A stretch of DNA of 37,416 nucleotides from Haloplasmataceae bacterium. Its GTDB lineage: Bacteria > Bacillota_I > Bacilli_A > Haloplasmatales > Haloplasmataceae. Position numbers and translations under genes: made by a program. Every line of letters starts with the position of its first letter. Position 1 is the stretch's first letter. This document shows positions 911 through 1,885 of this stretch, piece after piece. Where the stretch lies: NCBI GenBank assembly GCA_029240795.1, contig JARDZP010000011.1, positions 1 through 37,416 of the forward strand, given 5' to 3'. The notes beneath the pieces were generated by a model that saw only the letters and a program-made list of their open reading frames with translations, was not told the DNA's origin and ran no database searches.

Positions 911-1324
911 ATGTTTCAACAACCTTTTAATCCATCAATGAATCCTTATTTCCAAATGCCTGGTCAAATGCCTCAACAACCACCATTCGGAATGCCTCAA
1001 CAACAATTTGGTATGCAACAACCTCAATTCGGTATGCCTCAACAACCTTTTACACCTAGTCTTCAATATGGTATGCCGCAACAACAAATGCCTGGTCAAT
1101 TTATGCCACAACAGGATGCGATGTTTTCACAATTAATGACTCAAATTGATCCAGTTGTACAATTTGGTATAAGTCAATCAAGAGTTCAAGGTATTCCTGA
1201 CGCTATGAGAACTGTTGCGATGATTTCATTTTTAATGGGTAGTGGTTATGATTTTAATTCAGCATTAAATTTTGCTGAAGGTCTTGATATGGATGATAAT
1301 ATGCCGACAAGATTATATCGCTAA
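911..1324 (+). CDS. Met/Gln/Pro-rich low-complexity protein, unknown function
   Basis: A 137-residue protein. Residues 1-68 are almost entirely M, Q, P, F and G, with repeated units of the type FGMPQQ, QFGMPQQ and PGQMPQQ. Residues 69-137 form a normal-complexity, probably helical tail (about QLMTQIDPVVQFGISQSR to the end) with several small hydrophobic patches. There is no signal peptide and no membrane helix, so it is probably cytoplasmic. The start is supported by AAGGAGA at 897-903. A terminator follows and the gene appears monocistronic. I do not recognise the family. The N-terminus resembles prion-like or coat/inclusion-type low-complexity domains in composition only. The stretch could be subject to repeat-length variation. 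Confidence 0.8.
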   Translation: MFQQPFNPSMNPYFQMPGQMPQQPPFGMPQQQFGMQQPQFGMPQQPFTPSLQYGMPQQQMPGQFMPQQDAMFSQLMTQIDPVVQFGISQSRVQGIPDAMRTVAMISFLMGSGYDFNSALNFAEGLDMDDNMPTRLYR

Positions 1325-1363: not shown

Positions 1364-1517
1364 ATTTTAAATATAAAAAATAAAAATTTTTCCAATAGTA
1401 ATACAAAATATTAATGGTATCTTTTATATACCTACCGTATTTATAAGAATTAAAAAATCTTTTTAAAAAAATTAACAATTTTTGCATAAAAGGTAAATAT
1501 TATACTCATAATAAAAA

Positions 1518-1679
1518 TGCAACAAAATGTTGCACAATTTCATAATGAATCCCCCCCTATTCTTCTATCATACTTCTCCTCTCCCTTTCACATATACTTA
1601 CTTAGTGACTTAATTGTCACATCCTATCACTTCAGACCATCCTAATAGATGGTCATTTCCTTTTTTATGGGAACTTTTT
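1518..1679 (+). ncRNA. Putative small RNA, copy A
   Basis: The unit has, in order: a 5' hairpin TGCAAC-AAAAT-GTTGCA at 1518-1534; a long pyrimidine-rich, probably single-stranded stretch (CCCCCCC at 1551-1557, CTTCTCCTCTCCC near 1573-1585); a hairpin GTGAC-TTAATT-GTCAC at 1605-1620; a hairpin GACCATC-CTAATA-GATGGTC at 1635-1654; and a terminator stem TTTCC/GGGAA at 1656-1673 followed by TTTTT. TTGCAT (1482-1487) and CATAAT (1507-1512) lie upstream with a 19-base spacing conserved in both copies, so a promoter there is plausible but weak. No ribosome site precedes either ATG in the unit. The CTCCT motifs could pair with Shine-Dalgarno sequences, which would suit a trans-acting regulatory RNA. 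Transcript ends are inferred. Confidence 0.6.
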
Positions 1680-1723
1680 AAATATTTTTGCATAAAAGAT
1701 AAATATAGTACGCATAATATAAA

Positions 1724-1885
1724 TGCAACAAAAAGTTGCACAATTTCATAATGAATCCCCCCCTATTCTTCTATCATACTTCTCCTCTCCCTTTCACATA
1801 TACTTACTTAGTGACTTTATGTCACATCCTATCACTTCAGACCATCTTAACAGATGGTCGTTCCCTTTTTTAGGGAACTTTTTTT
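1724..1885 (+). ncRNA. Putative small RNA, copy B
   Basis: Second copy, with the same inferred length of 162 bases. Hairpins are TGCAAC-AAAAA-GTTGCA (1724-1740), GTGAC-TTTAT-GTCAC (1811-1825) and GACCATC-TTAACA-GATGGTC (1840-1859). The terminator is GTTCCC-TTTTTTA-GGGAAC (1860-1878) with seven T. Every stem is kept while every loop differs from copy A, and a one-base loop deletion breaks the reading frame between copies. Both facts favour RNA structure over protein. The terminator stem is stronger than in copy A, which has a T-G wobble at one pair. The 74-codon open frame beginning at 1723 runs through this unit and lacks a ribosome site. Confidence 0.6.

Follow-up and report, generated by a model that had tools for sequence, protein, structure and literature searches.

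A tandem pair of putative csfG small RNA genes in a Haloplasmataceae genome

The window analyzed here, a 37,416-nt stretch of DNA from a Haloplasmataceae bacterium, contains two adjacent direct repeats that are probably a tandem duplication of csfG, that is, a pair of forespore small RNAs (sRNAs) encoded on the plus strand, whose C-rich segment would block Shine-Dalgarno (SD) sites. The homology of the copies to elements in other genomes, their structure, their promoter motif, and their tie to sigmaG can be read from the sequences themselves. The pair can be identified as CsfG with one reservation, which is that the match to Rfam family RF00516 is made only through relatives.

Layout of the repeat pair

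When the window was compared with itself, two direct repeats (approximately 1472-1679 and 1678-1885) appeared with a start-to-start spacing of 206 nt. Identity is 94% between 1472-1614 and 1678-1820 and 88% between 1615-1679 and 1820-1884. The differences between the units, about 17, are concentrated in the promoter spacer, the hairpin loops, and the last terminator; that they are spread along the repeats argues against an assembly echo. The -35 and -10 elements are the same in both copies, with the differences in the promoter element confined to the spacer and flanks, and between the 5' hairpin and the terminators lies a C/U-rich segment that is identical over exactly 83 nt, bounded by differences at 1528 and 1612. 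This comparison confirmed the original prediction of two repeats 206 nt apart that share a conserved upstream element and an identical 83-nt C/U-rich segment. That all stems are kept and all loops differ, as had also been claimed, is correct for the 5', middle, and GACCATC/GATGGTC hairpins, which are retained with changes in their loops (including a 1-nt indel in the loop of the middle hairpin), but the last terminator stem (about 1655-1674 and 1860-1878) differs between the copies and is better in copy 2. The parts of both units are given in Table 1.

TABLE 1 Parts of the two putative csfG units, with positions in the window
Feature	Position	Strand	Details
SigmaF/sigmaG-type promoter, copy 1	1482-1513	+	-35 TTGCATAAA 1482-1490, -10 CATAATA 1507-1513; motif conserved before most homologues
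SigmaF/sigmaG-type promoter, copy 2	1688-1719	+	-35 TTGCATAAA 1688-1696, -10 CATAATA 1713-1719
Putative CsfG sRNA, copy 1	1518-1679	+	5' end inferred near 1518-1520, 3' end near 1679; fold
Putative CsfG sRNA, copy 2	1724-1885	+	covariance-model match; fold z -6.3
5' hairpin, copy 1	1519-1533	+	GCAAC-AAAAT-GTTGC; 5 pairs retained in homologues
5' hairpin, copy 2	1725-1739	+	fold; stem comparison
Near-invariant core, copy 1	1548-1597	+	CCCCCCC 1551-1557, CUUCUCCUCUCCC 1573-1585, UCACAUA; alignments A2/A3
Near-invariant core, copy 2	1754-1803	+	CCCCCCC 1757-1763, CUUCUCCUCUCCC 1779-1791; alignments A2/A3
Middle hairpin GUGAC/GUCAC, copy 1	1605-1620	+	folds; Haloplasmataceae only
Middle hairpin, copy 2	1811-1825	+	fold; copy comparison
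GACCAUC/GAUGGUC hairpin, copy 1	1635-1654	+	fold; terminator search
Double terminator, copy 2	1840-1885	+	GACCAUC hairpin 1840-1859, then GUUCCC/GGGAAC hairpin 1860-1878 and U-tail

Directly upstream of copy 1, the gene at 911-1324 (plus strand) encodes a Gln/Pro-rich protein of 137 amino acids with no family match; a box upstream of this gene, CATACACTA, is similar to the -10 element of mother-cell (sigmaE/K) promoters. Fragments of a group II intron (RF01998 and RF02001) occupy 215-491 on the minus strand, close to the left end of the contig.

Structure and coding potential

The predicted folding energy of copy 2 is -35.8 kcal/mol, compared with -15.7 ± 3.2 kcal/mol for shuffled sequences (z = -6.3), and 6 terminator-like sites were found versus 0.1 expected. 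The GACCAUC/GAUGGUC hairpin is the terminator in relatives, with the U-run directly after it. All five pairs of the 5' stem are present in 24 of 24 homologous sequences, and pairs 2, 4, and 5 are changed on both sides (counts obtained by motif-anchored parsing, not from an independent alignment). These covarying pairs support the original claim of a structured plus-strand sRNA. RNAalifold returned no structure from a MAFFT alignment because the 5' hairpins were misaligned in it. No conserved ORF is common to the relatives, which upholds the claim that the RNAs are noncoding.

CCCCCCC and CUUCUCCUCUCCC are predicted to be unpaired at a level of at least 0.9. Other families have the C-run in the loop of a hairpin in which AGAAGAAU and AUUCUUCU form up to 8 pairs; only GAAU/AUUC is left of this stem in the Haloplasmataceae, and at two loci (L024/L026, the same as L085/L084) the hairpin is absent, so the minimal core is AUCAUACUUCUCCUCUCCCUUUCACAUAU. 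The description of the segment as open holds for the core as predicted here, but it needs correction for relatives, in which a second hairpin has the C-run at its apex and the segment is therefore not wholly unstructured.

Homologues and their distribution

When 60 related genomes were searched at the DNA level, 14 of them, counting the one from which the window comes, had strong matches. A covariance model matched copy 1 at 1516-1597 (104.2 bits; E = 6e-21) and copy 2 at 1722-1803 (105.1 bits; E = 4e-21), each copy being itself in the model. In the covariance-model search csfG was tandem in the window's own genome only, so the expectation of a tandem, multicopy sRNA was borne out there, but every other genome found has a single copy. 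An exact scan for the 21-base core in one genome per species for 84,980 species gave 16 records; csfG also occurs in Turicibacter and Acholeplasmatales records, and no viral contigs with the csfG core were found. The homologues, which fall into several families, have in common the promoter, the 5' hairpin, a core, AAUCCCC(C)nUAUUCUUCUAUCAUACUUCUCCUCUCCCUUUCACAUAU, and the terminator; the near-invariant core spans about 45 nt. A diverged csfG in another family (L086:1485-1630; AAUCCCCCCUAUUUUG...CUUCUUUUCUCCCUUUCACAUA) could anchor a broader model.

A strong csfG (E < 1e-5) is present in 24 of the 395 genomes searched in the class. With the presence of sigG as a genomic proxy for sporulation, sigG was found in all 24, versus 117 of the 395 overall (naive P of approximately 3e-14, which ignores shared ancestry). 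The window's own genome encodes sigG and Spo0A. NCBI places the Haloplasmataceae in the Mollicutes, a wall-less group, and we found no earlier report of CsfG in this family.

Relation to CsfG and RF00516

The original prediction considered the sRNAs to be undescribed. They appear instead to correspond to B. subtilis CsfG, the locus of which is in Rfam as RF00516, the "ylbH leader," on the opposite strand. Published work reports that the ylbH element is not a leader, with Northern analysis showing CsfG to be made from the opposite strand of this locus (PMC3574147). CsfG is a forespore sRNA in B. subtilis. It is reported to have three C-rich regions (PMC4409812) and is described as a C-rich-region sRNA that is controlled by both sigmaF and sigmaG and for which no target is known (PMC8216469).

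At 14 of 18 homologous loci the divergent neighbor is rsmD (the same gene as ylbH), and RsmD was confirmed for five of the proteins; the csfG locus in the window does not adjoin rsmD. An Rfam scan of the window gave no match at the feature (nor did Rfam RsaE match the window), and the scores of the window copies against RF00516 were not above noise. Three relatives (L008-L010) match RF00516 on the rsmD strand, opposite to the sRNA, below the gathering score; for L009 alone, E was 2e-5 in a 251-nt search. The window copies are linked to RF00516 transitively, via the A2/A3 alignments with these relatives. A search with RF00516 in 392 genomes of a phylum sample gave no match at E ≤ 1e-4, and the B. 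subtilis control was positive. The adjacency to rsmD and the RF00516 match in relatives, together with the published descriptions of CsfG and related sRNAs (PMC3574147, PMC8216469, PMC4409812), therefore lead us to identify the pair as CsfG, subject to the reservation stated above.

The promoter motif and a second C-rich sRNA

The motif G[CAT]ATAA-spacer-CATA[AC]TA lies upstream of most homologues (the Turicibacter promoter is a variant, GTATA..CAATATTA), and on the basis of the known consensus we take it to be of the sigmaF/sigmaG type. In the 2.67-Mb genome to which the window belongs, TGMATAAN{13,18}CATAMTA occurs at four places (the reversed control gave 1 match): two of these precede the csfG copies, one precedes spoIIQ, and one precedes a second C-rich sRNA. 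The only protein gene found behind the motif in this genome, the ORF of which begins about 40 bp downstream, is that for SpoIIQ (E = 2e-51; PDB SpoIIQ 3tuf, 6e-34). In B. subtilis, SpoIIQ is a protein of the sigmaF regulon. We infer that each csfG copy is transcribed from its own sigmaF/sigmaG-type promoter, on the plus strand, in the forespore.

The fourth match leads to an element of about 160 nt (G000:C169:8853-8690, minus strand; L049 and L097, with homologues L051-L057) that consists, in order, of a 5' hairpin (UGCAC/GUGCA), ACCUACCC...UAUCCCCCCAAAACUCACAUAACAUAUUUACCCCCCUAAUCAAC, and a terminator with a stem that differs in sequence from species to species. The element is present in 8 of 8 Haloplasmataceae searched, with strong matches there only, and in each genome it lies on the same strand as, and about 1 to 2 kb from, a divergent Spo0A_C paralogue. 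Stray 3' halves occur in three genomes (G001, G003, and G006), and there was no convincing match to Rfam. The element resembles csfG in its promoter motif, 5' hairpin, C-rich open segment, and terminator but differs in its core and in its adjacency to the Spo0A paralogue; it seems to represent a new sRNA family with the same control as csfG. That the Haloplasmataceae have two forespore sRNAs, csfG and the family-specific C-rich sRNA, which have one sigmaF/sigmaG-type promoter and jointly set forespore translation, is a tentative proposal to which we give somewhat less than an even chance.

Possible mechanism and candidate targets

In each RNA, a 5' hairpin would give protection, a near-invariant segment rich in C and U would be single stranded, and a terminator, which is double in the window's own genome, would follow. 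The C/U-rich segment would act in trans: by pairing with purine-rich SD regions, it would block the translation of forespore mRNAs. The tandem duplication would raise the dose of CsfG. Because the core is predicted to be open and is complementary to AGGAG-type sites, as the original prediction of a C-rich seed had held, the natural model, and the most likely action of CsfG, is one in which it prevents ribosomes from binding, on the analogy of RoxS and FsrA.

Prediction of targets by seed pairing gave nothing specific beyond this complementarity. In seven Haloplasmataceae there were no perfect complements of CUUCUCCUCUCCC elsewhere, besides csfG itself; the near-complements examined were mostly inside coding frames, and no conserved near-complement of the core was found at Haloplasmataceae start sites. 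A first test asked whether the core prefers start regions, and 0 of 20 shuffles were as good. With a narrower core against ribosome-binding regions 7 of 60 were, which means that C/U composition suffices for the preference.

A recurrent start-site match was rejected as a target since it falls within an LRR-ORF/small-gene pair, where coding overlap can explain it. This arrangement, in which an LRR-repeat-like ORF overlaps a small conserved gene, MEKN(R/S)LLEIRK..., recurs across the Haloplasmataceae (L137, L139, and L146, in G004, G003, and G001, respectively). Among 195 start regions that were sampled from the window's own genome, the sigG leader ranked third. As a CsfG target it is unsupported: several family members have lost its UAUGUGA match, and there was no clear difference between sigG leaders of genomes with and without csfG (-20.5 versus -18.8 kcal/mol, with the start located in part of the genomes). 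Translation of B. subtilis sigG is damped by a hairpin of its own leader (PMC5942855), and a conserved AAGCC..GGCUU pairing around the ribosome site of Haloplasmataceae sigG leaders (L158, L170, L175, L176, L177, and L181) could act similarly.

Alternative explanations

That the locus is a small protein gene, with a short ORF such as MNPPLFFYHTSPLPFTYTYLVT as the functional product, is extremely improbable. Both copies in the window, like several relatives, do have an ATG ahead of the C-run, but it is missing from that place in other families, the length of the C-run (4 to 7 among relatives) breaks the frame, the 5' loop is variable in length, and the short ATG frames lack an SD sequence. We also consider it very unlikely that the element is a minus-strand cis-regulatory leader of rsmD, which was the original "ylbH leader" idea and is how Rfam files RF00516. 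It is the plus strand that carries the promoter and the U-tailed terminators, the core is no less conserved at loci that lack rsmD, the window's among them, and the B. subtilis Northern analysis detected the CsfG strand only (PMC3574147). On its minus strand the near-invariant core does include a uORF of four codons that has a perfect ribosome site (AGGAG-AAGT-ATG-ATA-GAA-GAA-TAG) and lies upstream of rsmD in many genomes, and rsmD is downstream on that strand at 14 of the 18 loci; however, the part of the RF00516 consensus examined has no ATG-ATA.

The same sRNA might instead have as its main partner a protein, either an Hfq-like chaperone or some other C/U-binding protein, rather than mRNAs with which it pairs. 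B. subtilis CsfG, which has conserved CU-rich stretches, associates and coprecipitates with Hfq (PMC3574147), a near-invariant single-stranded segment of about 40 nt exceeds the need of one seed, and the pairing preference at ribosome sites is not above composition. However, Hfq affects the level of CsfG only modestly (PMC3574147), and the C-rich regions of RoxS were shown to pair with mRNAs (PMC4409812). We regard a mainly protein-binding role as unlikely and favor csfG RNAs that would pair with SD sites.

Significance and comparison with known sRNAs

CsfG is conserved among spore formers, and its core was found only in sigmaG genomes. The putative csfG genes of the Haloplasmataceae, Turicibacteraceae, and Acholeplasmatales-related lineages would pinpoint, in the near-invariant core, the nucleotides that are important and would give a compact comparative set for target finding. 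The data support the view that RF00516 models the wrong strand, and the tandem copy plus the sister sRNA would be a means to study dosage.

Like B. subtilis CsfG, the sRNA adjoins rsmD/ylbH in relatives and is predicted to be transcribed opposite to it, has C-rich open regions and a sigmaF/sigmaG-type promoter, and is restricted to sigmaG genomes; TTCTTC and TTCTCCTCTCCCT elements, as read from the RF00516 consensus, are also in common. The differences are that the spacers here depart from that consensus, that the Haloplasmataceae have an additional GUGAC hairpin, and that csfG in the window's own genome is tandemly duplicated and away from rsmD. RoxS/RsaE and FsrA, other sRNAs of the Bacillota, differ in sequence, synteny, and control (ResDE and Fur; PMC8216469), but they too have C-rich seeds in single-stranded regions, and their manner of action is likely the same.
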